The notes below the pieces were generated by a model, which had not been told where the DNA came from, searched no databases, and saw only the letters and a program-made list of their open reading frames with translations. A program made the position numbers and the translations under genes. Below are positions 3,575 through 39,707 of a stretch of DNA of 39,707 nt, piece by piece. How positions within the stretch are numbered: the stretch's first letter is position 1; each line of letters begins with the position of its first letter. The stretch lies in the IMG/VR virus record IMGVR_UViG_3300036795_000171, positions 1-39,707 of that record. One strand, 5' to 3'. Source of the stretch: a virus.

Positions 3575-4518
3575 GGGTCGTTTCTCAGTCGCGCCGGCAC
3601 ATCATCCGGCATGGGCGCTTTGCCGGGGAACTGCAACTCGGGATAGTCCACGAGCAGCGTCACAAGAAAGCAGAGACACCGAGGATGGGGCGCGGTCGGC
3701 GCGTTGTCCACAAGGTAGTTCCCCGCGCCGAGATCGTCGGGGTCGTCACTCGCTAAAAGGTCGCATTGGCATACCTTCGGATGGCTGGGGGAGAGTCTCC
3801 AGCCGACGCCGGCGACATAGCTCTTGGCCTTCCCGTCGGCATCATAGAGGCTTGCGATCTGCGCTTCTCGGTGGGCGTTATTGATTTCGGTCTGCGCGAT
3901 CGTGGCGGCTCGGTAGCGCGGGCAGTCCGTGCCGGCCTTCGTCATCGTGTCCTGAATGCGGCGGCTCATCGCACGAGCGCTGATCTGCTCGGCAACGCCC
4001 TGAGTGATCGTGTCCCCCACGGCTTTTTTGGCCGCCGCATCCAGGCGGTAGAGGCGGTCGGACAGCTTGTAGCCGTCGCTGTAGACGCGCTTCGCGACCT
4101 CTTCGACCGCGCGCTTCGCTACCCGCCCGAAACTAACCGAGACCTGCTTGCCGTCCGACAGTGTCCGCGTCGTCGAAAGCGTCGCAAGCACCCGCCCGTC
4201 CGCCGGAGCGCCGGCAAACCCGGCGACGCGGGCCTGTGTGTCCGCCGCCGTCTGCGCGAGGCTCAGCATCCCGGTCTCCATCAGAACGGCCGTATCCCGC
4301 CGCAGGCTCTGCAGTACGTCCTGGAGACCTTCCAGCAGGTTCGCGAGATGCGCCTGCTGAACGGGCTTGTCTTCTCCGCCGAGCGCCGTGATCTTCGCTG
4401 AAAGGGAATCGGCTGCCGCCTGATAGATCGCCTCAAGCTGAGCGACTTCTTCGCGCGTCCGCAGAAGCTGCTTTTTGCGGCAGTCACGGATGAGCTTGCC
4501 GTACTCAGCCTTCGTCAT
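3571..4518 (-). CDS. Mu F-like / SPP1 gp7-like minor head protein
   Basis: 315 residues. The C-terminal half carries the signature of phage head morphogenesis proteins: RAATIAQTEINNAHREAQ, then a WRLSPSHPKVCQCD motif and PHPRCLCFL, i.e. the conserved Cys/His cluster that defines the F-like domain. Such proteins sit in the capsid near the portal and help assembly or DNA ejection. The N-terminal half is helical. The gene overlaps the portal stop by 14 bp and its GAGAG ribosome site lies inside the portal gene, so the two are coupled, as in SPP1. Confidence 0.88.
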   Translation of the reverse strand: MTKAEYGKLIRDCRKKQLLRTREEVAQLEAIYQAAADSLSAKITALGGEDKPVQQAHLANLLEGLQDVLQSLRRDTAVLMETGMLSLAQTAADTQARVAGFAGAPADGRVLATLSTTRTLSDGKQVSVSFGRVAKRAVEEVAKRVYSDGYKLSDRLYRLDAAAKKAVGDTITQGVAEQISARAMSRRIQDTMTKAGTDCPRYRAATIAQTEINNAHREAQIASLYDADGKAKSYVAGVGWRLSPSHPKVCQCDLLASDDPDDLGAGNYLVDNAPTAPHPRCLCFLVTLLVDYPELQFPGKAPMPDDVPARLRNDP

Positions 4519-5947
4519 CGCGGCTCTCGATCCCGCCGATCTCGGCCAGCACCCGGTCCGCCCAGCTCAGGTCGCCCTCGTCCGGATCGTCGCCGTAGAC
4601 CGCCTTCTTCTTCTTGCCGCTGCCCTTTCCGCTGCCCGCGCCTGCATCTTCCTCGGGGTCGGCAGGATCGGCCTCTTCCGCCGCCACATCCGCCGGGGTG
4701 TTCGGCTCGGGCTGGCGTCCCCCGGCTTTCGGCGGGTAAAGCTTGTCGCCGTCTTCCACGGGCTTGAGGCTGATCTGCGCGCGGGCCTCGTTCGGCGTAA
4801 TAAACGGCCCGCCCGTCGCGTCGGCGAGCCGCTGATAAAGGGAGTCCGTCGAGTCCTGCAATGCCCGCACCTGTGAATAGTCCGCGCCGACGGTCTCACT
4901 CGCCGGATTGCCAAAGAAAGGCAGCAGCTGCACGTCGAGATCGCTGTGAATAATGTCCAGCATGGGGATGATGCACATCGTCCACGCGGCGGCCGTATCT
5001 GCGTCCCGGTTGCTGTAGGTGCTCTTCTTGATGCCGACGCCGAGCTGCAGGACGCCGGGCGGGATGCCGATCAGTGCGCAAATTCGCTCCTCGGGCTTAT
5101 CCTGCGCCGTGTCCATCAGTAGCTGTTCCGGCGAGAGCGCCATCTGCTTGACATCGATCGGCCCGGTCAGCACCATCGGTCTGCCGCGATTGTCGCCCTG
5201 GGTCGCCTCCTCGTACTCGTCCTTGAGCGCGTCCATCTCGGGCTGATCGAAGGTCTGCTTGCCCTCTTTGGGCGTGATGATGCAGCCGGGAACGCCCATG
5301 TTCTTGAGGATCGCGGCGGCATACCCGGCGGCCTCGTTATCGGTGACGATCTCGCGGAAGGCGCTTGCCAGCGGCGACAATCCAAGCCACATCGCCTCGG
5401 GGTTCAGACCGTCGCGGAAGTGGATCACGTCCTCGAATTTGAGGGTCGTTTCCTGACCATTCTGGGTGTAGGTGTAATCGATAATCCAGTTGTCGGTATC
5501 CGGGCCGGGGTTTGGCCTCACCTGGTAATGCGGCAGGTACCACAACTCTTTCGGCAGGCCGTCCATGCCGCGCACAATATACCAGTAGGCATTCCCGCTG
5601 ACGATCAGGCTGAGCATCGTCGCCTTGCGCAGCGTGCGGCCCGAGTAGAATTTGTTCGGGCGCGTCAGCAGCTTGGTCAGCGGATGGGTATAGACGATCT
5701 TCTTTTTACCGTCCGGGCCTGCCAGGTAGACGCACGGCGGCGCCTGCGGCAGGTTGCGTCCGATCCAGTGGATCGAGGCCGAGACGATGCTGTTTTTCCA
5801 CAGGTCGCCGGCCAGACGCCGGTAATCCACCTTCGCGCCGGGCAGGAGCCCGTACAAGAACGCGCGCGGCGCTCGACCGCTGCCGCCGGTAGGCAGACCG
5901 CCTTTAAGGACGGCCATGCCGCGCTGGAGATATTGGCGTGTGTTCAA
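4505..5947 (-). CDS. Portal protein, HK97 family
   Basis: 480 residues forming the dodecameric vertex through which DNA is packaged. Recognisable segments are VSASIHWIGRNLPQAPP, the THPLTKLLTRPN block, SLIVSGNAYWYIVR and the long stem/wing region with FEDVIHFRDG. It lies downstream of TerL and upstream of the F-like head and protease genes, the standard order. The C-terminus is low-complexity and ends in KGSGKKKKAVYGDDPDEGD. The furthest start is a TTG at 5947 with no good ribosome site; an ATG a few codons downstream (MAVLKGG) is an alternative. Confidence 0.92.
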   Translation of the reverse strand: MNTRQYLQRGMAVLKGGLPTGGSGRAPRAFLYGLLPGAKVDYRRLAGDLWKNSIVSASIHWIGRNLPQAPPCVYLAGPDGKKKIVYTHPLTKLLTRPNKFYSGRTLRKATMLSLIVSGNAYWYIVRGMDGLPKELWYLPHYQVRPNPGPDTDNWIIDYTYTQNGQETTLKFEDVIHFRDGLNPEAMWLGLSPLASAFREIVTDNEAAGYAAAILKNMGVPGCIITPKEGKQTFDQPEMDALKDEYEEATQGDNRGRPMVLTGPIDVKQMALSPEQLLMDTAQDKPEERICALIGIPPGVLQLGVGIKKSTYSNRDADTAAAWTMCIIPMLDIIHSDLDVQLLPFFGNPASETVGADYSQVRALQDSTDSLYQRLADATGGPFITPNEARAQISLKPVEDGDKLYPPKAGGRQPEPNTPADVAAEEADPADPEEDAGAGSGKGSGKKKKAVYGDDPDEGDLSWADRVLAEIGGIESRDDEG

Positions 5948-5951
5948 GGTT

Positions 5952-5983
5952 TAGAATTCGGATTAAGGCTTAGAATTCGGATT
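5952..5983. repeat. Short direct repeat before the portal gene
   Basis: TAGAATTCGGATT occurs twice with a 19-bp period (5952-5964 and 5971-5983), overlapping the end of the small membrane gene and the portal start. The two copies straddle the stop codon of that gene. It may be a replication-slippage duplication. Confidence 0.6.
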
Positions 5984-10963: not shown

Positions 10964-11053
10964 TACTATTTTGACGTTAAATTAAAATATTTTCAACTTT
11001 TTTTCGGGATTGGGCTTTTGGGTTGGTGTCGAAAAGGCGCATTATCACTACCA

Positions 11054-11083
11054 TTGACACCCGGCCAAATTATACAGTATCAT
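11054..11083 (+). promoter_or_regulatory. Promoter for the tyrosine recombinase
   Basis: TTGACA (11054-11059) and TATCAT (11078-11083) are separated by 18 bases. Initiation near 11090 would exclude the TTG at 11023 and fits starts at 11107 or 11134. Its -35 context (ATTGACACCCGGC) resembles that of the Cro-like gene promoter (ATTGACACCAGGC). Confidence 0.65.
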
Positions 11084-11106
11084 CGATAGCAGAGGCGCTA
11101 ATTTTG

Positions 11107-12114
11107 ATGAGATCGGAAGCGCCGGAAGCCATTATGACTGACCTGATAAAATCAGGGGCAAGCCCCCTGATAACATTGCCTGCCTCGCCCGGATCCCTGG
11201 CGCCGGGCCTGAACATCGCTGCGCTCCTGCTCCAGGACCAGCGCGTCGATACGACACGCCGCGCCTACAAGGCCGCGCTGAAGCATTTTTTCGAGGCGGA
11301 GTATGGCGCGCCTCCCGACGCCGCCCTGGTCCGCGCCTTCCTCGCCCAGTCCGCGCCGCAGCTCGCCCTGCAGCTCGCGACCTACCGCAACAGCCTGCGC
11401 GCCGATGGTCGATCGCCAGCGACGATCAACCTGCGCCTCGCGGCCATTCGCTCACTGCTGACGCTCGGGCACCGGCTCGGGTACTGCGCGGTTAACGGCC
11501 AGAAGCTCATCGACAGCGAAAAACAGGAGCGGTACCGCGACACGCGCGGGACCGACCTCGCGAACCTGCGCCGGCTGATCGCCCTGCCGGACCGCTCCAC
11601 GCTGCGCGGAAAGCGAGACTTGGCGCTGCTGCGGCTGCTCTGCGAAAATGCACTCCGCAGGGAGGAGACCTGCGCGCTCGACGTCTGCGATTTCGAGGGC
11701 AGCGAGCGCAGAATCGCAATCCTCGGTAAAGGCAAAACGCAGAAATCGTTTGTCACAATCCGGGCTGCCACCGTGGACGCGATCCGCGACTACCTCCTCA
11801 TGGCAGGGCATACCGCCGGACCGCTTTTTTTGACCTGCGACCGCCGGCCGCATCTGGCCGGCGCGCGGCTGCGGGCGGGGGGACTCTACGCGATCGTCGC
11901 GGCCTATGGCAAGCAGGTCGACCTCACACTCGCACCGCACAAGCTGCGCCACAGCGCAATCACCGCCGCCCTGGACGCCACCGGGGGCGACATCCGCCGC
12001 GTCCAAAAACTAAGCCGGCACGCGGACATCCGGACTCTGTCGATCTATGACGACAATCGCAGCGACCAGCAGGGGGAGATCACAGCGATCCTGGGCGACC
12101 TGCTCGATGGGTGA
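11107..12114 (+). CDS. Tyrosine recombinase (phage integrase or resolvase)
   Basis: 335 residues from the ATG at 11107 (ATG at 11134 is an alternative). The N-terminal SAM-like core-binding domain covers about residues 30-130. The catalytic domain has the family residues: Arg in CENALRREE (near 11654), Lys in the LGKGKTQK beta-hairpin, HKLRHS (His and Arg at 11938-11949), LSRHADIRT (His near 12018) and the nucleophile Tyr in SIYDD (12046-12048). The C-terminal arrangement is XerC/D-like. The stop is directly followed by the stop of the opposing gene (no spacer). No attP-like core was found beside it, so integrase and multimer resolvase are both possible. Confidence 0.92.
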   Translation: MRSEAPEAIMTDLIKSGASPLITLPASPGSLAPGLNIAALLLQDQRVDTTRRAYKAALKHFFEAEYGAPPDAALVRAFLAQSAPQLALQLATYRNSLRADGRSPATINLRLAAIRSLLTLGHRLGYCAVNGQKLIDSEKQERYRDTRGTDLANLRRLIALPDRSTLRGKRDLALLRLLCENALRREETCALDVCDFEGSERRIAILGKGKTQKSFVTIRAATVDAIRDYLLMAGHTAGPLFLTCDRRPHLAGARLRAGGLYAIVAAYGKQVDLTLAPHKLRHSAITAALDATGGDIRRVQKLSRHADIRTLSIYDDNRSDQQGEITAILGDLLDG

Positions 12115-12726
12115 TTACCCCTCTCCCCGCCGACGGCGAAGGTCCCGCGCGAACGGCGTATCTGCGGCCGCCAGTACGCGCCGTGCGGCCTCGACCGGCT
12201 TCTCCTCTCCCAAAATCGAAGATGAAATCTGTCTTTCAGATTCTTTCTTTTTTTCTTCTGAAGGATTTCTTTCAGATTCCTTACTATAAGGGGTGCCAAA
12301 TTTTAGGGTACTAGATTTTAGGGTGCTAGATTTTAGTACCCTCCGCTTTTCGCCCAGCGCCCTCCTCTCCATTTTGATCGCTTCGTCCTGGCGCTTCGCG
12401 TCCGCCCAGCGAAGCGCATACCGCGCCGGATCGCGCGGCCCGGCCGGCGCCGTCTTGCGGATAAAGCCGGCCTCCTCGGCCAGCCGCAGGCCCTTGCGCG
12501 CCGACTCCTGGCTCAGGCCGCGCCGGACGAACTCAGAAAGCGGCAGGTCCGCCTCGATTCGCCGGCCGCCGGTCACGGCGCTGCGCCAGCCCAGAGTCGC
12601 GCGGATCAGGATGGCGACCACGGTCACGACGCATGGCTCATGCCGGCCCACCACGCGGTCGAAAAACTGATTGGGCGTCGGCGTAAAATTAGCGTCCGGG
12701 GGATCGAAGCCTGCAAACTCACTCAT
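12115..12726 (-). CDS. O-like winged-helix replication protein
   Basis: 203 residues. The N-terminus (ANFTPTPNQFFDRVVGRHEP, then VVTVVAILIRATLGWR and LSQESARKGLRLAEEAGFI) fits the winged-helix N-terminal domain of lambda O-type replication proteins (TQIPNELLDxL, then xxxLIxRKTxGW, then helix-turn-helix). Residues 125-165 are a repeat linker rich in K, S and E (TLKSS repeats, ESER repeats) encoded by AT-rich repeated DNA, as in lambda O where the iterons lie inside the gene. The last gene of an operon with an ATPase and an RHH protein. It could be a replication initiator or a regulator; initiator is preferred. Its start overlaps the preceding gene by 8 bp. Confidence 0.55.
   Translation of the reverse strand: MSEFAGFDPPDANFTPTPNQFFDRVVGRHEPCVVTVVAILIRATLGWRSAVTGGRRIEADLPLSEFVRRGLSQESARKGLRLAEEAGFIRKTAPAGPRDPARYALRWADAKRQDEAIKMERRALGEKRRVLKSSTLKSSTLKFGTPYSKESERNPSEEKKKESERQISSSILGEEKPVEAARRVLAAADTPFARDLRRRRGEG
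12232..12345. repeat. AT-rich repeat cluster, candidate second origin
   Basis: Inside the O-like gene: a 15-bp unit ATTTTAGGGTACTAG begins at 12300, 12315 and (partial) 12330, and a 12-mer TCTTTCAGATTC occurs at 12232 and 12268. GGGTAC and GTACCC flank the array as an inverted repeat. The DNA is strongly AT-rich in a GC-rich genome, as expected of iterons beside a duplex-unwinding region. Confidence 0.5.
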
Positions 12727-13114
12727 CTTCCCCGCCCTCCAGCACGGAAAAGTAGAGCGTCAGCGCGTCGTGGATCACGTCCTGTTTGAGCCTCCCGGTC
12801 TGCCGGCAATGCGCCTCGACCTGGGCGTCTAGGTCCGGGCGCATCTTGAGCGTGACGGTTTTGTAGACCGGCTTCTCGGGCAGCCCGCGCGCCGCCTGGC
12901 GGATCGCATGGATGACCGACTTCGCAGCCGGTGGGTCAGAAGGTTGGTCGGTCGGTAAGCTGACCGACAAGCTGGTCAGTCGGTCAGTCAGTTTGTCAGA
13001 TTCCTGACCGGTCATATTATCAGTCATATTATCAGTCATATGACTAGCTGACTGACTTTCCCGCGCGGCCATCTTTTGCAGGTTGACGCGCTGCAGGTCC
13101 TGGATCGTACTCAT
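12719..13114 (-). CDS. Ribbon-helix-helix protein of the ATPase operon
   Basis: 131 residues from the ATG at 13114, chosen for GGAGG upstream and ATGA overlap with the ATPase stop. Residues 1-75 are low-complexity with MTDNMTDNMTG repeats encoded by the GTCA-rich DNA described below. The C-terminus (YKTVTLKMRPDLDAQVEAHC, LKQDVIHDALTLYFSVLE) is a ribbon-helix-helix: one strand then two helices. RHH proteins paired with an ATPase are typical of plasmid partition adaptors, though transcriptional autoregulation would also fit. The 12-bp and 5-bp repeats inside the gene could be its own binding sites. Confidence 0.6.
   Translation of the reverse strand: MSTIQDLQRVNLQKMAARESQSASHMTDNMTDNMTGQESDKLTDRLTSLSVSLPTDQPSDPPAAKSVIHAIRQAARGLPEKPVYKTVTLKMRPDLDAQVEAHCRQTGRLKQDVIHDALTLYFSVLEGGEDE
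12913..13056. repeat. GTCA/TGAC repeat cluster inside the RHH gene
   Basis: The tetramer GTCA or its complement TGAC occurs 14 times in 144 bases, where about one would be expected by chance. It includes a 12-bp tandem GTCATATTATCA (13011-13022 and 13023-13034), the palindrome GTCATATGAC (13035-13044) and an inverted CTGACC/GGTCAG (12960-12979). It looks like a binding array such as a centromere or iteron cluster. Confidence 0.6.
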
Positions 13115-13956
13115 TTCTGGGCGCCCTCCGCCTTCACCGGCCACTTCTTGGCTGCCACCATCTCGGAGTAGGTCGCCGCCACGACGGCCGGGGAAATCAC
13201 CGTCTCGGCGCGCACGTAGGCGTTGACGAGTGACGCATCGCAGAGGACGCAGACGTCGCGCGGTACTCCCCTGGTGATATTGTAGATGTCGATCAGCGAG
13301 CGCGCCTCGAACAGCGCGTCCGCGCCGGCGCCCCCGGCGGTCCGGATCCGGTGCTCGATCATGCCCTTCATATCCTCAAAGGCGAGCGGATCCAGGTTGC
13401 TGACGACCGCGATCCGGCTGCGGAAGGCGTCCTTGCGCGAGAGCTTGTTGGGGAAATTGTCCTGCGCGAGCAGTACGATCGTAATCAGCTTATCCTCAGC
13501 GGTCTGGAAATTGGAGAGGGCGGCCAGCACGTCGATATTGTCGGGGTGGATCGTCTGCGCTTCGTCGATCAGCAGGACGGGATGGCGGCCGGCCGCATAC
13601 TCCTCCAGCAAAAACCGCTCGATGATCTTTTGGTTATCCGCGGCGATCCGGACCGGCACCAGGCCGTAAGCCTCGGAGACCAGGCGCAGGAACTGGCCGG
13701 GGCTGCGGACCGCCGCGCTCGGCAGGAAGGCGACCGTTTTGCCGTCGTCTGCCGCCCATGTCCGCTGGAGCTGGTGCGCGATCGTGGTCTTACCGCTGCC
13801 GACCGGCCCCATCAAGAGCGCGAGGCCCCGCTTCTGATCGGCGGCATAGCGCATCTTGGCGACGGCGATCTGGTGCTCGGCGCTCGGGTAGGCGAACCGG
13901 GGAGAGGGCTGCGTGCCGAAGGGCATCTCCCGCAGGCCGAAAAATGCTTCGTAGAT
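13111..13956 (-). CDS. ExeA/GspA-type AAA+ ATPase, apparent AUC start
   Basis: 281 residues if read from an AUC codon at 13956; the first ATG is 10 codons later at 13926. Walker A GPVGSGKT, Walker B VLLIDEAQ, and a C-terminal HRIRTAGG segment mark the ExeA/GspA family, which is related to transposition and loader ATPases. Family members begin MYxxFFGLxExPF...PxPRF; here the codons from the AUC read IYEAFFGLREMPFGTQPSPRF, and AAGGAG lies seven bases upstream of the AUC, so the AUC fills the place of the normal Met. Upstream frame has no ATG, GTG or TTG before a stop. The role is likely helicase loading or partition with the RHH and O-like proteins. Confidence 0.8.
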   Translation of the reverse strand: MYEAFFGLREMPFGTQPSPRFAYPSAEHQIAVAKMRYAADQKRGLALLMGPVGSGKTTIAHQLQRTWAADDGKTVAFLPSAAVRSPGQFLRLVSEAYGLVPVRIAADNQKIIERFLLEEYAAGRHPVLLIDEAQTIHPDNIDVLAALSNFQTAEDKLITIVLLAQDNFPNKLSRKDAFRSRIAVVSNLDPLAFEDMKGMIEHRIRTAGGAGADALFEARSLIDIYNITRGVPRDVCVLCDASLVNAYVRAETVISPAVVAATYSEMVAAKKWPVKAEGAQK

Positions 13957-14014: not shown

Positions 14015-14044
14015 ATTATAGCAAGAGGAAGGAGAAGGAGTCAA
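14015..14044 (-). promoter_or_regulatory. Promoter of the ATPase-RHH-O-like operon
   Basis: On the minus strand TTGACT (14039-14044) and TATAAT (14015-14020) are separated by 18 bases. Transcription would start near 14008 and give a leader of about 50 bases before the ATPase AUC. The spacer is pyrimidine-rich. This is a strong constitutive-looking promoter on the lysogeny side. Confidence 0.75.
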
Positions 14045-14474: not shown

Positions 14475-15077
14475 TTACATCGTGTCGCTTGTGCTCGCGA
14501 TACTATACGCCCCGCTCGATTTCGCCGATTTACGAATGCTTCCATCAACGTCAATCTCCACTTTGATATCGCCGCTATTGCCTTGATTTTGAGCAGAAAT
14601 ATAGAGGAAGGCTCCTTTTTCCGGGTAGATCGTCTGCTGCCAGGGCAGGGAAACTGTCTGCTGCTCGGTGCCACCGTCGCTATTGGAATAGGTGACGTCG
14701 GCAGATGTCGCATCTCCGTCAACATAATAGGTTGCCGAATCCGGCTCGGTTGGCGCGGGGGAAGCTGCTGGCGCGGACGTAGCCGGTTCGGATGTGGGGG
14801 ATTGCGGTGGGGCATTGATCGGCTGCCCGTTTTTGATACCGGCGTGCGAAAAATCCAATAGGATAGCATGGGCCGACGAGTCGTAATCCACCTTGGCCCC
14901 CAGCGCCTCACTGACGGCGCGGAGCGGGATATACGAAACGCCATTGACCATCAAAGCGATCCCGGCTGGCTTTCCGTCCACAAAAACAGCAATTGGCGCG
15001 TCCGCGCTGGACGCGAAACAGGTCACGCCCAGGGCGGTCATTATCAGGGTTGCGAGTATCAGGTGAGTTGGTTTCAT
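14475..15077 (-). CDS. Secreted moron with copper-amine-oxidase-N-like and MmpS-like domains
   Basis: 200 residues. An N-terminal Sec signal peptide (hydrophobic core LILATLIMTALGV, cleavage near FASSADA) leads to a copper-amine-oxidase N-terminal-like domain: VDGKPAGIALMVNGVSYIPL, RAVSEALGAKVDYD. After a Pro/Ser/Thr linker (residues 87-112) comes a beta domain resembling MmpS-type accessory domains (VTYSNSDGG, VSLPWQQ, ISAQNQGNSGDIKVEIDVDG). The first domain is common in wall-associated proteins of Bacillota and Armatimonadota. Lying next to the repressor on the same strand, it is probably expressed in lysogeny and may alter the host surface. The function is inferred. Confidence 0.75.
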   Translation of the reverse strand: MKPTHLILATLIMTALGVTCFASSADAPIAVFVDGKPAGIALMVNGVSYIPLRAVSEALGAKVDYDSSAHAILLDFSHAGIKNGQPINAPPQSPTSEPATSAPAASPAPTEPDSATYYVDGDATSADVTYSNSDGGTEQQTVSLPWQQTIYPEKGAFLYISAQNQGNSGDIKVEIDVDGSIRKSAKSSGAYSIASTSDTM

Positions 15078-15078
15078 T

Positions 15079-15510
15079 TTATGCCGCCTGTCTGCGCTTC
15101 TTTTTAGCCGCGTAACCTTCGATCATTACTTCTACACACCCGTGGAGTTCAGTGAGATCATCACCAGTAAAGTCTTGCTCATCTAGGCCAACTTCCCGAA
15201 TAAGGGAATGGATTGGCCGAAATTTGGGATATTGGTACTCTTCTGCGGGAACAAGCACGAAACCTTCAGGGGGATAAAACCCATGTGCGAACATTTCTTG
15301 ATCACTGACGTTTAGCTCCTTCGCCAACAACCTAAGATTGCTTTCCCCGACTCGTGGCGGCGCGTTGCTTGCCGGTTGGTCATCACCCTCAATAAAGCCT
15401 ATATAGGCGCGCGTCATGCCTGTTCTGCGCGCGAGTTCAGATTTAGAAATACCTAACTTCTCGCGCAACTCTGTGATATAAGCGCCGAACGTCTGGTTTT
15501 CTGTCTGCAT
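15079..15510 (-). CDS. XRE-family repressor (CI-like)
   Basis: 143 residues. An N-terminal helix-turn-helix (FGAYITELREKLGISKSELA, RRTGMTRAYIGFIEG) is followed by an acidic C-terminal region (REVGLDEQDFTGDDLTELHG) with no LexA/CI autocleavage signature that I can see. It is divergently arranged with the Cro-like gene, the classical switch layout, and is on the same strand as the secreted moron. ATG at 15510 is preferred over 15528 because the earlier one lies almost on the transcript start. It likely binds the TTGTATATT operators. Confidence 0.8.
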   Translation of the reverse strand: MQTENQTFGAYITELREKLGISKSELARRTGMTRAYIGFIEGDDQPASNAPPRVGESNLRLLAKELNVSDQEMFAHGFYPPEGFVLVPAEEYQYPKFRPIHSLIREVGLDEQDFTGDDLTELHGCVEVMIEGYAAKKKRRQAA

Positions 15511-15545
15511 CCTTACACCTGCTCGCATCCTGAATGTATAGTCAT

Positions 15546-18289: not shown

Positions 18290-18610
18290 ATGCCCAGAAC
18301 GCCCAATCCTGATGCGGATTATACCCCAATCGATCACAGTATCGACGGCCTTCGGTTCGCGATGGCGAAATTTATCGAAATTGAAATCGCATGGATGCAG
18401 GTCGAGCACGCGCGCCATGCACTCGACCTGGGACTCCAGGTCAACGACACCGAGCAGGTCATCAACAGGCTCACGCTCAACTACCAGCAGGCCGCTCGCC
18501 GACACCGCGAAATCCGTACGCTCCTCACGGATGCCCCCCCCCACTTAGCAAGCCCGTCCCAGCATTTCTCTCAGGGCATACCAATGACTGAGAGGAGATT
18601 GTCACAGTGA
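18290..18610 (+). CDS. Hypothetical helical protein upstream of the initiator
   Basis: 106 residues from the ATG at 18290 (GGAAG five bases upstream; an ATG at 18278 is the alternative). Helical (FAMAKFIEIEIAWMQVEHAR, LNYQQAARRHREIRTLL). Its stop overlaps the GTG of the initiator. Unrecognised; close coupling to the initiator suggests a replication-related role. Confidence 0.55.
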   Translation: MPRTPNPDADYTPIDHSIDGLRFAMAKFIEIEIAWMQVEHARHALDLGLQVNDTEQVINRLTLNYQQAARRHREIRTLLTDAPPHLASPSQHFSQGIPMTERRLSQ

Positions 18611-19758
18611 GCCTTTGCCTGCCGTCCTCCTTTGCCCACGACATGCGCCTCATGCGCATGCTGAGCGCGCATGAATTCCGTCATCTCCTGCAGGTGTTCG
18701 ACTTCGCCCTGAATTCGTGCCAATCATACACCATCCCTGCGCGGCGGCGCGAGGAGCTGCGCTATACGCTTGGCATCAACCAGGCCAAATTCGAAAAGCG
18801 CCTTGAAAAATGGAGCAGCCCCGAGATCGACCTGATCGAGATCGACGAAGACGGCGCGCTCTACCTGACCTATCTCGCAGATCAGTCGCAGGGGCAGAGC
18901 GCAGGCGGCGACGCGCCCAGCAGCGGCAACGGCCTTACCCCGCGCCTCCAGGAAGGCCGCCGCTACAGCAACAGCCCCGAGGCCGAGCGCCAACGGGCCG
19001 CGTATCGTCGCAAAAACGGCAACGGTTACGGCAGCGGCGCGGCGCCGGACGAGCCGCCGAATTCGGCCGCCAATGGCGACTCGGGCATGACGCCGATGCG
19101 TGAGGCTTTCGAGAAAAACCTCACGCAAAACCTCACGCCTAGTGAGAGTAAACCTCACGCTTCTGCGTTAGGTTTTGATGAAAATCAACGTGAGGTTTTC
19201 CGCGTACGCGTAAGAGACGTTATCGTCTCAGAAAAAGAAGATCACAAAGTGATCTCTGATTCCGGAGACGTTATCGATATCGATAACGTTGAGGCGGCCA
19301 CAAAAACCTCACGCAAAACCTCACGCCTGGAATCGCCGCCGCTGCCGGTCCCTGCCTCGCCGGGGCTGGCCGCCGAGGTCGATCGGGTCATCCGTAATCA
19401 GGCGGTTTCCGCCGTCCTGCGAGACACCGGGGACAGCCCGAAAAACCGGGGCCTCTGGGTCCACCTCTACACCGCCTGTGACGCCTGCGGCCTCATCGAG
19501 GAGATCTGGCGCGGCTCCGTCCTTGACCTGGCCGAGCGCCTGAAAGATACCTCCGACCCGGTCCGCAATCGTGCCGCCTGGCTGCAGGACCGGATGCGCC
19601 GGAAGTTCGAGGAGCAGGACGTTTTCCTGCCGACCCAAGCCGAGATCGCCGCGGCGATGCAGCGCGGGGAGGGTCCGGAGTGGGTCCGCTCCGTCATCGC
19701 TGAAAGCATGTCCGAGGCCGAGCGAAACCTCGCCGGTCCCACAGAGGAGAATCCCTGA
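18607..19758 (+). CDS. Replication initiator with internal origin (O-like)
   Basis: 383 residues, GTG start (GGAG in GAGAGGAGATTG upstream). Residues 1-95 resemble a winged-helix domain (LSAHEFRHLLQVFDFALNSC, ARRREELRYTLGINQAKFE). Residues 95-170 are low-complexity (S, G, P, A, N). Residues 164-240 are encoded by iterons and palindromes. Residues 250-383 form a conserved-looking helical domain (GLAAEVDRVIRNQAVSAVL, LDLAERLKDTSDPVRNRAAW). This DNA-binding domain / iteron-encoded linker / partner-binding domain plan is that of lambda O. The protein is not recognised by name; initiator is inferred from this plan and position. The stop overlaps the ParB-like start. Confidence 0.65.
   Translation: MSLCLPSSFAHDMRLMRMLSAHEFRHLLQVFDFALNSCQSYTIPARRREELRYTLGINQAKFEKRLEKWSSPEIDLIEIDEDGALYLTYLADQSQGQSAGGDAPSSGNGLTPRLQEGRRYSNSPEAERQRAAYRRKNGNGYGSGAAPDEPPNSAANGDSGMTPMREAFEKNLTQNLTPSESKPHASALGFDENQREVFRVRVRDVIVSEKEDHKVISDSGDVIDIDNVEAATKTSRKTSRLESPPLPVPASPGLAAEVDRVIRNQAVSAVLRDTGDSPKNRGLWVHLYTACDACGLIEEIWRGSVLDLAERLKDTSDPVRNRAAWLQDRMRRKFEEQDVFLPTQAEIAAAMQRGEGPEWVRSVIAESMSEAERNLAGPTEENP
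19098..19326 (+). other. Candidate replication origin: 8 iterons around a palindromic core
   Basis: The 12-mer AAAACCTCACGC, with at most one mismatch, occurs at 19115, 19127, 19149, 19303 and 19315 on the plus strand and inverted at 19098, 19165 and 19188. Between the two groups are GAGACG-N4-CGTCTC (19214-19229), GATCAC-N3-GTGATC (19240-19254) and a perfect 22-bp palindrome (19268-19289, core ATCGATATCGAT). All lie inside the initiator gene. Confidence 0.75.
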
Positions 19759-21560
19759 TGCCCAAAACCATTTCCCCGCCCGCAGCGGATCATGCCGCGC
19801 GGCATAACGGCGCCGGCCATATCTCCAATATTGACGGAAAAACAACCCCCGAGATCGACGGAGAAACAACCGTCCTCGGTATTTCTCTTACCGTCCTCGA
19901 ACTTCCGATCGCGGACATCCGGCCCAGCCCCCTGAACCCGCGCAAGACGTTCAATGCCGACTACCTCGCCGAGCTCGCGGAGAGCATCCGGCAGCACGGA
20001 GTGATGCAGCCCATCGAAGTCCGGCCAATGGGAGCATACTTCTCGATCGTTATGGGTGAGTGCCGGTGGCGGGCCGCGCATCTCGCGGGACGGACGACGA
20101 TCCCCTCCCTCGTGCGGGTCATGGACGACCGGGAGCACCGGGAGCGCGCCATCGTCGAAAATATCCAGCGACGCCAGCTTGACCCCATCGAGGAGGCAAT
20201 AGGGTATCGCGATCTCTCGCAAATGGGCTACACCCATGCGCAGATCGCCGCGAAAGTGGGGCGCGGCCAGCCGGCGATCACCAAGGCGATCTCGCTGCTC
20301 GACCTGCCCGCGAATTCTCAGGCGAAAATCTCCACGGGTGAACTCTCTGTCTCGCAGGCGCTCGTCATCAAGCGCTACGCCGCATCGCCGGCGGTCGCCG
20401 ACGCGATCTCTGACGTCGTCGCGCGGGACAAGATCAGCTCGCACACGCTGGAGAAGGGCGTCCCTCACGAAGTCACGGACGTGCTTAAAAAAGACAAACT
20501 GGCGCGTGAAGTCGGGTATGAAACACTTTTCGACTGGAGAACGATCTGCGAGCAGTGCCCCTTCCAGGCGTTCATCAAAGATAACTATAGCCGGGGTTAC
20601 TGCCTCCGTCCCGAACATTACAACGAACTTCAGCGCGCCGCTAAAGCCCAGAAGACTGAGGCGGACAGGGTGCGCGCCGACAGCGACAAAGCGGCAGGCA
20701 TCACGGCCAATCTCAGGAGCCTCAAATATGACAGCTTTGTGCACATCCCCGATGCCGCCCCTGGCGGCTGCTCGGAGGCGTGCGAGTGCAGGCAGGTCGT
20801 CAAGGGCTACCAGGGTGAGCCGGTCGCCATCTGCAACGATCCTAAGCGTTACCAATCACTCAAAAAAGCAGACAAGGAACGCCGCAGCGCGCTGCTGGCC
20901 GCGAGGTCGGAGGGGCTGCTGCAAAAGGCGATCTCTTCGATGGACGCCGCCGGCGCGGATTGGGAGGCCCCTGCGCTGGAGCGCTCCATTTGGCTGTTCG
21001 GAGTAAATGCCTTTCGTTCTTTGGAATTTGAGATCTGTCAGGAGGCGGCAGCGCGGCGCGGTATCACGCTGACCGAGCGATGGTCACAATACTGCGAGAT
21101 GCCCTCGGCAGCGCGCGCCCAGTTCGGTCCTCTCAGCCCCTTAGATTTTCTCTACCTGCTCGCGGAGGCACGGCTGAGGCAGGACATCAAACGCGCCGTC
21201 GAGAGCGCGCAGGAAGACCAACTCGCGCGACTCGAATGGTTCGCGTCGGCAGAGGAGGTGCAGGCCGAAGATGTCTCCTCTGCACCGGTGCGCTGCGCGA
21301 AATGCAAAACAGCGCCGCCAGCGAGGCCACTCGTGGGCCGCGCTCTGTGGGATTATCTCACCTGCGGGATCCATGTCAGCCAGTTCGGCGAGCTTGTGAC
21401 ACCTCGGGGCGCTTATTACTGCAGCGACTGCGGCCCCGGCGTGGCCTATTGCCGGGAATGCGGCTGCACGGACGAAGCCGGCTGCGAGGGAGGCTGCACA
21501 TGGGTCGAATACGACCTCTGCAGCGCCTGCGCGGCCCCGCAGGAGGCACCGGCGGCATGA
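19758..21560 (+). CDS. ParB-like protein with cysteine-rich C-terminus
   Basis: 600 residues, about twice the usual ParB length. The N-terminus is a ParB/Spo0J nuclease-CTPase domain: LPIADIRPSPLNPRKTF, motif GECRWRAAHLAGR (100-112, normally GERRxRA) and ENIQRRQLDPIEEA (134-147). A helix-turn-helix follows (YTHAQIAAKVGRGQPAITKA). The middle carries Cys pairs (about residues 265-280 and 330-350). The C-terminus has CAKCKTAP and a CRECGCTDEAGCEGGC cluster, several zinc sites. It lacks a ParA neighbour. Likely origin or DNA binding in replication, or a host-takeover role; phage ParB-like proteins of this kind are not all partition proteins. Confidence 0.75.
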   Translation: MPKTISPPAADHAARHNGAGHISNIDGKTTPEIDGETTVLGISLTVLELPIADIRPSPLNPRKTFNADYLAELAESIRQHGVMQPIEVRPMGAYFSIVMGECRWRAAHLAGRTTIPSLVRVMDDREHRERAIVENIQRRQLDPIEEAIGYRDLSQMGYTHAQIAAKVGRGQPAITKAISLLDLPANSQAKISTGELSVSQALVIKRYAASPAVADAISDVVARDKISSHTLEKGVPHEVTDVLKKDKLAREVGYETLFDWRTICEQCPFQAFIKDNYSRGYCLRPEHYNELQRAAKAQKTEADRVRADSDKAAGITANLRSLKYDSFVHIPDAAPGGCSEACECRQVVKGYQGEPVAICNDPKRYQSLKKADKERRSALLAARSEGLLQKAISSMDAAGADWEAPALERSIWLFGVNAFRSLEFEICQEAAARRGITLTERWSQYCEMPSAARAQFGPLSPLDFLYLLAEARLRQDIKRAVESAQEDQLARLEWFASAEEVQAEDVSSAPVRCAKCKTAPPARPLVGRALWDYLTCGIHVSQFGELVTPRGAYYCSDCGPGVAYCRECGCTDEAGCEGGCTWVEYDLCSACAAPQEAPAA

Positions 21561-21697
21561 CCGCGATCACCGTCACTACCGAGCAGGTCGACATCGACCA
21601 GGGGGATCGATCCAACTTCGGGACGCATCCGCTCCTGGTGGCCCTCTGTCGCGCCTTCGGCGTCAGCGTGAGAGCGCTGACGGAGGACGAGGAATGA
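21557..21697 (+). CDS. Small hypothetical protein
   Basis: 46 residues beginning MTAITVTTEQVDIDQGDRSN, ATG overlapping the ParB-like stop (ATGA) with GGAGG ten bases upstream, and its stop overlapping the next start. The stretch HPLLVALCRAFGVSVRALTE is helical. Real by its coupling; unrecognised. Confidence 0.5.
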   Translation: MTAITVTTEQVDIDQGDRSNFGTHPLLVALCRAFGVSVRALTEDEE

Positions 21698-22368
21698 GCA
21701 CATCATGGGCAACCCTCAAAGACGCCCTCGGCCTGACCCTGCGCCCCGTCGATCTCTGGCCGGGCAAGCTCCGGGCTTCCTATGATCGCGAAGCGTCGCC
21801 CTACACCGCGCCCCTGAAAGACACACTGCGCGTCCTCAAATACGAACTGCAGGAGCTTGGCGCGACAAGCATCGTCCTGCAGATCGCCATCCGGGAGCGC
21901 GACATTCGACTCGACGGACTGCCGCGTGCCGATGCCCGCGCCGAGCATCCCGGCGTCATCCTTTCGTTCGAGACAAAGGCCGGCCCGCGCCGGCGCGCCT
22001 TTGATCGATTTATGAAGTGGGAACATAACCTGCGCGCGCTCGCCAGTAACCTGCAGCATCTGAGGCACGCCAACTTGTACGGGGTCGAGGAGGATGCCGT
22101 CCAGTATGCAGGCTGGAAAGCGCTGCCCGCTCCGCAGACGCTGCCCGCCGAGATCGGTGCCGCCCGCGATCTGCTCGACCTGGCCGGGGAATACGGTCCG
22201 TCCTCGCAACTCTATCAAGGATTGATCGACGACCCGGAGGCGCGCCGCGATGCCTGGAAACGCGCCGTGAAGCGTCATCATCCCGACGCGGGCGGCGATC
22301 CTGAAAAATTCCACCGTGCGCAGGCGGCTTATGACCTGCTGGAGAAAAGCGCACTGAAAGGGACTTAA
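21694..22368 (+). CDS. J-domain (DnaJ-like) protein
   Basis: 224 residues. The C-terminal 50 residues are a J-domain end: AWKRAVKRHHPDAGGDPEKF then HRAQAAYDLLEKS, with the HPD motif (196-198) that stimulates Hsp70 ATPase. N-terminal 170 residues have no recognised fold but begin with a helical region and contain VILSFETKAGPRRRAFDRFM. It may recruit host DnaK to remodel the replisome or virion assembly intermediates, as in lambda replication where DnaJ/DnaK dissociate the O-P-helicase complex. It is in the same operon as the O-like initiator. Confidence 0.8.
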   Translation: MSTSWATLKDALGLTLRPVDLWPGKLRASYDREASPYTAPLKDTLRVLKYELQELGATSIVLQIAIRERDIRLDGLPRADARAEHPGVILSFETKAGPRRRAFDRFMKWEHNLRALASNLQHLRHANLYGVEEDAVQYAGWKALPAPQTLPAEIGAARDLLDLAGEYGPSSQLYQGLIDDPEARRDAWKRAVKRHHPDAGGDPEKFHRAQAAYDLLEKSALKGT

Positions 22369-39342: not shown

Positions 39343-39698
39343 ACAATTCCCTGCTCGACGCCTGTCTCCAGGTCGCATTGCACGCGGTCGCTATATCTTC
39401 GCAGGCGGATGATCTTCGCCCGCTCCATCGCCCCCGGCGCGCTGTCCGAGGGGATGTAGGCGATGTCATTCACCTGCACCGCCGCGCTCGGGTTCAAGAT
39501 GCTGAGGCGCCGCATTACGTCGAGCGTCGCCGTTGCCGGCTGCGCTTCGTCCCTACTGATGGTCGTCTGCGAGACGCGGAAGACGCGCGCCGGGAAGGGC
39601 GAGCCGGGAATCGGCGCTTCCACCTGCGTATAGCCGCCCGTGGCCGTCCGCGTCCGCACGGAACGCACGATCTTGATCTTGAGGATACGGTTCGACAT
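39339..39698 (-). CDS. Head-tail joining (head closure) protein
   Basis: 119 residues, MSNRILKIKIVRSVRTRTAT then VEAPIPGSPFPARVFRVSQT and a beta-rich end. Small beta-barrel closure proteins follow connectors in this position. The gene crosses the contig junction: its 5' end is repeated at 1-118 and its ATG overlaps the connector stop by TGATG in the circle. Fold inferred from position and size. Confidence 0.65.
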   Translation of the reverse strand: MSNRILKIKIVRSVRTRTATGGYTQVEAPIPGSPFPARVFRVSQTTISRDEAQPATATLDVMRRLSILNPSAAVQVNDIAYIPSDSAPGAMERAKIIRLRRYSDRVQCDLETGVEQGIV

Positions 39699-39707
39699 CA
39701 GGTGATG
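39581..39707. repeat. Terminal redundancy of the contig, copy 2
   Basis: Identical to bases 1-127. It holds the 5' part of the head-tail joining gene and its junction with the connector gene. Confidence 0.9.

Follow-up and report, generated by a model that had tools for sequence, protein, structure and literature searches.

An AAA+ ATPase, ribbon-helix-helix and winged-helix gene cassette of probable plasmid type in a virus with likely Armatimonadota hosts

The window analysed here is the whole 39,707-bp stretch of IMG/VR virus record IMGVR_UViG_3300036795_000171. Its minus strand carries, from 13956 to 12115, three overlapping genes for an AAA+ ATPase, a ribbon-helix-helix (RHH) protein and a winged-helix (WH) protein, in that order, behind a strong sigma-70-type promoter (Table 1). 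All three reading frames are intact; the ATPase and RHH genes overlap in the sequence ATGA, the RHH and WH genes overlap by 8 nt, and the WH gene adjoins a convergent recombinase gene. Promoter-like sites in the region number 11, against 2.1 in shuffled sequences. A first-pass annotation had described three overlapping genes with their own strong promoter and likened them to a replication or partition module, and the gene calls and the promoter sequence agree with that description. The block is very probably a cassette of plasmid type for replication and maintenance.

Table 1. Positions of the cassette genes, repeats and related features in the window
Feature	Position	Strand	Remarks
AAA+ ATPase (AAA_22; ExeA/GspA-MuB-TnsC-like)	13111-13956	-	start probably ATC 13956, alternatively ATG 13926
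RHH protein	12719-13114	-	N-terminal peptide MSTIQDLQRVNLQK, variable repeat-rich linker, C-terminal RHH domain
TGAC/GTCA array, candidate centromere-like site	12913-13056		14 sites in 144 bp, mixed orientation, partly 12-bp phased, inside RHH gene
WH initiator-like protein	12115-12726	-	one WH domain; without the C-terminal domain of plasmid relatives
Three 15-bp iteron-like repeats	12290-12341 (copies 12291-12335)		AAAAT(C/T)T core; inside WH gene
AT-rich A-tract stretch, candidate unwinding element	12211-12290		70% AT against a mean of 38%
Sigma-70-type operon promoter	14015-14044	-	TTGACT-18-TATAAT, TG before the -10
HTH repressor-like gene	15079-15528	-	HTH_3 E 2.5e-8; PHROG repressor families; upstream of cassette
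Xer/integrase-type tyrosine recombinase	11023-12114	+	Phage_integrase 64.6 bits; convergent with WH gene
Second initiator candidate, lytic strand	18607-19758	+	internal repeats AAAACCTCACGC at 19099-19328
Direct terminal repeat	1-127, other copy 39581-39707		identical bases

The ATPase is a protein of 281 aa with a single AAA+ domain and no membrane or peptidoglycan-binding part. It matches Pfam AAA_22 with a score of 58 bits, and a structure model built from four sequences (mean pLDDT 85) finds its best solved folds in MuB (Z 21.0; 3.6 A over 231 residues) and TnsC (Z 20.8; 3.2 A over 241 residues), with Orc1/Cdc6 next at about Z 20. The Walker A, Walker B and arginine positions are kept in an alignment with homologues of 41-62% identity. 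Translation likely starts at a rare ATC codon at 13956, since AAGGAG lies just upstream and homologues begin MYEEFYGLRE, matching the ATC-TAC-GAA read in the window, and this start explains the end coordinate of 13956 that had been given for the block. ExeA/GspA is of the same Pfam family, and the gene that follows the ATPase gene opens with a short hydrophobic-basic peptide similar to that of ExeB/GspB, whereas the window protein is without the membrane and peptidoglycan-binding parts of ExeA/GspA and has a predicted DNA-binding partner.

A profile of the RHH family gave weak matches to the PDB, most of the top ones being RHH proteins (VapB, MatP, PutA, ParG and CopG; E 0.013-0.15, with ParG at E 0.11), and the protein alone as query gave no matches in phages or plasmids. 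The N-terminal peptide reads MSTIQDLQRVNLQKMAA in the window and MTTLAELRLANLREQKK in chromosomal relatives, and genes located after more distant ATPases of the family, which encode GspB-like, O-like, ParB and other RHH proteins, start with similar short peptides. From an unscored reading by eye, the peptide may be a docking site for the ATPase, which fits the requirement for the ExeA ATPase domain in formation of the complex with ExeB (PMC4098917).

To assess the array in the RHH gene, TGAC/GTCA sites were compared with codon-based null models. The whole gene has 17 sites, against 8.7 with background codons (P=0.0005) and 12.0 when its own codons are permuted (P=0.0045), and its 9-mer repeats score 18 against about 5 (P=0.003-0.008); the GTCA array noticed in the first-pass annotation therefore exceeds what the protein sequence forces. 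The excess over the codon null is also present in the mobile RHH genes of loci L028, L082, L084 and L086, and is absent from the chromosome-like RHH genes of L076, L078 and L079 and from those of L077, L083, L085 and L090. The RHH gene of L028 also has an array, phased at 6 or 12 bp, and the RHH gene and the WH gene of L082 each contain an array of the motif GCAGTAA, beside a second repeat set and an AT-rich stretch. A search of viral contigs with the array DNA pattern AATATGACNGNNAATATGAC matched six, none of which (0 of 6) carries the cassette proteins. The 14 candidate half-sites would provide the repeated centromere-type site near the genes that is characteristic of ParABS systems. For the RHH ParB of pSM19035, at least four contiguous repeats in any orientation are required for ATPase activation (PMC9499535), a requirement that the array would, by analogy, resemble. 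The partition systems of pSM19035 and TP228 (ParA with the RHH proteins omega and ParG) likewise combine an ATPase and an RHH partner with arrayed short repeats whose orientation is mixed (PMC9499535), but their motor is a deviant-Walker ParA, whereas here it is an AAA+ protein and the RHH gene itself contains the array. On the plus strand, two promoter-like sites also fall within the array (12993-13032) and may have arisen by chance.

The WH protein exhibits 53% identity over 129 aa with the Rep of contig G013:C9 and 28-38% with the Reps of 18 other loci, and is nearest to the Reps of L084 and L142 (53-54%). A tblastn search of phage records retrieved the 'replication protein' of ON073792, a cyanobacterial plasmid-type Rep (E 3e-11). 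A fold search with the WH model, in which a short helical tail is left at the C-terminus, gave generic winged helices only and so identifies no initiator. The first-pass annotation had called the gene O-like and held that it recalls replication, and its homology to Reps located next to parA-parB in many phyla upholds the second of these statements. Lambda O similarly has an N-terminal WH domain with repeats and an AT-rich stretch within its gene, but the window gene has ATPase and RHH genes upstream, and its product has no O-like PHROG sequence match. Initiators of the lambda O kind recruit the helicase machinery through a C-terminal domain, and the window protein ends in the short helical tail where related Reps have a domain. 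The 15-bp AT-rich repeats that had been placed at 12232-12345 are present as three copies (Table 1) and do not extend across that interval, the remainder of which is AT-rich with a two-copy 24-nt repeat. The homologous rep genes of the window, L084 and L142 all have three 15-16-bp repeats in the same place; each repeat has GC-rich ends around an A/T core, and an A-rich stretch comes after the three. The letters of the repeats differ between the three and the layout is identical, as would be expected of diverged initiator-specific origins.

To determine where relatives of the cassette occur, an alignment-based scan with the WH protein was performed on 84,980 genomes and yielded 28 loci. In most of these, parA and parB come after a rep gene whose product has two WH domains, and a small RHH gene often precedes that rep gene; a WH-matching Rep lies beside parA-parB on 20-plus contigs from Verrucomicrobia, Omnitrophota, Nitrospinota and Armatimonadota. 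ON073792 (L007) has no virion genes, carries RHH-rep-parA-parB along with polysaccharide genes, and by its gene content reads as a plasmid. ON073792, PP438434 and PP438404 are all labelled as cyanophages, are all 42,586 bp long, and look like one cyanobacterial plasmid. These rep-parA-parB plasmids of Verrucomicrobia, Armatimonadota and others, including ON073792, share with the window a homologous WH domain, an RHH gene often located before rep, and repeats in rep, but have ParA-ParB where the window has the ATPase and RHH protein, and most of their Reps have two WH domains and a long C-terminus.

Relatives of the ATPase were found in 51 of 291 Armatimonadota genomes at E<1e-30, in three settings. 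The first is mobile: an ATPase, a short linker-rich RHH-like protein and a WH gene occur together at L028, L077, L082-L086 and L090, with WH proteins of several families. Locus L028, on a Chthonomonadaceae contig, encodes a serine resolvase followed by the ATPase (E 5e-83), RHH (2.4e-30) and Rep (1.3e-18) homologues; L077 neighbours a coupling-protein-like gene and L083 has a tyrosine recombinase upstream. The three-gene order for which the first-pass annotation had proposed a search in plasmids is thus present on contigs that look like plasmids. In the second setting, ATPase-RHH pairs lie beside housekeeping genes with no initiator (L075, L076, L078, L079 and L080), and their ATPases are 59-62% identical to that of the phage; the pair is therefore a unit that can stand without an initiator. 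The third comprises distant ATPases beside Soj-like or PilM-like genes. On a tree of the ATPases, from which L084 was left out, the phage protein falls in a clade (100/100) with L028, L077 and the chromosome-like pairs, whereas its WH protein is nearest to L084 and L142, suggesting that pair and initiator have been reshuffled. At L093, L096 and L097 a distant ATPase, a small protein and a Soj-like ParA are encoded in a row, with a KLDELFADxPxLSxTMKA motif in L096 and L097.

Two natural swaps involve the pair. Within one genome, contig G013:C13 has the order parA-parB-(114-aa ORF)-rep and G013:C9 the order ATPase-RHH-rep, with homologous reps (phmmer 7.8e-117), and two Chthonomonadaceae loci differ in the same way, with parA-parB-rep at L027 and ATPase-RHH-rep at L028. 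No rep locus examined has both parA-parB and ATPase-RHH, and no parA-parB pair is present on the four longest contigs with closer ATPases (C9, C10, G033:C124 and G028:C259; 116.7, 65, 34.8 and 58.6 kb), although C9 has one lone ParA-like ORF. In two independent cases, therefore, ATPase-RHH stands ahead of homologous reps where parA-parB is found otherwise, which supports the suggested likeness to partition, although the ATPase is not a ParA-type motor.

The explanation that best accommodates these observations, and to which about an even chance is given, is a plasmid-derived replication and maintenance cassette of a temperate phage in which the ATPase and RHH protein form a partition pair. The WH protein would act as an iteron-binding initiator, with its origin, the three 15-bp repeats and the AT-rich stretch, inside its own gene. 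The RHH protein would bind the GTCA array in its own gene and recruit the ATPase through the conserved N-terminal peptide; the ATPase would bind DNA non-specifically, and its ATP cycle would move or anchor the prophage DNA. ATPase, RHH protein and array would thereby do the job that ParA, ParB and parS do elsewhere. MuB, an ATPase that binds DNA non-specifically, forms filaments (PMC7350765), and these properties would by analogy suit a motor on the nucleoid. The prophage would live as a plasmid, with the adjacent plasmid-type recombinase possibly resolving dimers, and lytic replication would be served by a second initiator on the other strand. That the pair itself performs partition is a slightly doubtful proposition, close to evenly balanced. 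More tentative again is the view that the pair and array represent a kind of DNA segregation system not described before, in which the motor is a MuB/TnsC-type AAA+ ATPase and an RHH protein binds the centromere, and which is exchangeable with plasmid parA-parB, used by a phage-plasmid, and stand-alone on Armatimonadota chromosomes. To our knowledge, the well-known plasmid partition motors are all ParA, actin-like or tubulin-like proteins, and literature searches, incomplete in coverage, found no AAA+ ATPase/RHH partition system in open-access publications. If true, an AAA+ motor that replaces parA-parB ahead of one and the same rep gene would define a new partition class, and the two swaps make the idea directly testable.

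Several observations weigh against this explanation. A profile of 17 plasmid and chromosomal ParAs does not match the ATPase; the motor is not of the ParA, ParM or TubZ type, partition by it would thus call for a motor of a new kind, and the ATPase family is broad and includes secretion factors such as ExeA with GspB-like partners. At 203 aa, against 410-650 aa in relatives, the WH protein is without their C-terminal domain, and its repeats are only modestly above a synonymous-codon null (P=0.02-0.04), although their shared position in homologous reps appears to be stronger support than that test. The pair is not always a substitute for ParA: a ParA gene lies beside the ATPase in G210:C250, and chromosomal L093, L096 and L097 have their Soj-like gene after the ATPase and its partner. 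Clean exclusion also has an exception in L181 of Chloroflexota (4134-5685), where parB directly follows the ATPase gene and, on this short contig, has no parA next to it. The plasmid-like contigs with the cassette are not closed plasmids. IMG/VR scans with the ATPase, WH and recombinase queries and the WH alignment found no close viral relative of the cassette, and relatives identified by major head protein and large terminase (TerL) have no cassette in the parts examined.

The main rival to partition is helicase loading or copy control. Here the WH protein would initiate, the ATPase would load or remodel the replicative helicase at the internal origin, in the manner of DnaC, lambda P or Cdc6, and the RHH protein on its array would regulate copy number. 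In fold, the ATPase comes near Orc1/Cdc6 and not only MuB/TnsC, and small RHH genes just before rep in parAB plasmids are placed like copy-control regulators. In two phages, L102 (7938-9804) and L103 (7971-9763), a distant ATPase of the superfamily directly precedes an O-like initiator with strong internal repeats, with no RHH gene, and this arrangement also fits a replication role and tells against partition. However, the chromosome-like ATPase-RHH pairs have no initiator alongside, the pair stands in for parA-parB ahead of homologous reps which elsewhere do without the ATPase, and the ATPase of L181 adjoins parB. Loading of the replicative helicase is thus a serious rival, though replication as the sole function is unlikely.

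An improbable reading is that the block is a regulatory or decayed remnant of a plasmid, at most an incompatibility or superinfection-exclusion element, in a phage that integrates by its tyrosine recombinase. The loss of the WH C-terminal domain, the weak repeats by the codon null, and the adjoining recombinase would suit such decay, but the three intact frames have overlapping starts and stops and a consensus promoter, the catalytic motifs of the ATPase are conserved, the repeats and AT-rich stretch are retained at the homologous place, and the recombinase resembles plasmid rather than phage enzymes. A role in transposition or target choice, with the ATPase as a MuB/TnsC/TniB-type helper and the RHH and WH proteins as accessory DNA-binding proteins, has very little probability: MuB and TnsC are the top structural matches (Z about 21) and PHROG 296, 'DNA transposition protein', matches the ATPase at E 1.4e-14, but a scan covering a set of large ORFs recognised no DDE transposase, the ATPase has an RHH partner, the neighbours are recombinase, repressor and structural genes, and relatives sit with rep and resolvase genes and, as a rule, not with transposases. 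Least credible is an ordinary secretion-type ATPase (ExeA or PEP-CTERM) beside unrelated regulators. In its favour are the TIGR03015 match (E 3e-46) and the annotated plasmid tblastn matches examined, which are polysaccharide/XrtA ATPases, though from a different context; the TIGR03015 score, however, reaches 158 bits against a curated cut-off of 324.5, and the RHH gene downstream, the absence of a peptidoglycan-binding domain or GspB partner, and the conserved three-gene order with rep all contradict it.

The same 127 bases open and close the record; given this direct terminal repeat, the genome is probably complete, at about 39.6 kb. The minus strand encodes TerL, portal, head morphogenesis, protease, major head and tape measure proteins. 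The major head protein has relatives of 43-64% identity in contigs of Armatimonadota genomes and the ATPase has relatives of 59-62% identity in the same phylum, and hence Armatimonadota are the likely hosts. From about 15.9 kb, early genes run on the strand opposite to the cassette, which may be active in lysogeny, given its strand and its nearness to the repressor-like gene. Between that gene and the ATPase operon lies a gene for a secreted protein (14475-15077, minus strand) with matches to the Cu_amine_oxidN1 and Mycobact_memb domains, possibly a lysogenic-conversion gene.

In a search of plasmid and phage records, relatives of the tyrosine recombinase were found in 191 plasmid records (up to E 7e-52) and in four phage records, the latter as partial matches. 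This predominance of plasmid relatives favours a predicted role in plasmid dimer resolution, as by Cre, with integration also possible; Cre, in P1, is a tyrosine recombinase that may resolve dimers.

The separate lytic initiator anticipated in the first-pass annotation has a candidate on the lytic strand, which contains six CCTCACG-type repeats (9-mer score 71 against 16 expected, P=0.0005) and is the only one of 290 ORFs in the window to match the C-terminal domain of plasmid Reps (E=1e-4; 0 in a reversed control). The gene has further palindromes and probably holds a lytic origin. P1 has, within one phage genome, repA for plasmid replication and a separate gene, repL, for lytic replication (PMC9603915). 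The parallel that had been drawn with P1 is fair as an analogy, two initiator candidates being present in one phage, since the second has the repeats and matches the Rep C-terminal domain that is absent from the WH protein. As in P1-type phage-plasmids, separate plasmid-type and lytic replication genes (here by homology and synteny) accompany a tyrosine recombinase, but the initiators, origin repeats and ATPase belong to unrelated families, an AAA+ ATPase and RHH protein stand where P1-type elements have ParA-ParB, and the plasmid prophage state of those elements is here a prediction from gene content. Virion genes in a complete genome together with a plasmid-type replication gene that appears distinct from the lytic one are nonetheless among the features by which phage-plasmids are recognised. 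With this phage, the P1 habit of keeping two replicons would be extended to a phylum whose phages have hardly been studied, and its cassette would be a source of components for a replicon vector for Armatimonadota.

Neither the Rfam scan nor the tRNA scan of the window gave a match. On the lytic strand, an operon encodes a 600-aa ParB-like protein with a cysteine-rich C-terminus (19758-21560), with no ParA nearby, followed by a protein with a J-domain-like C-terminus (21694-22368). Between the portal and terminase genes lies a 19-bp tandem repeat in two copies (5946-5983).

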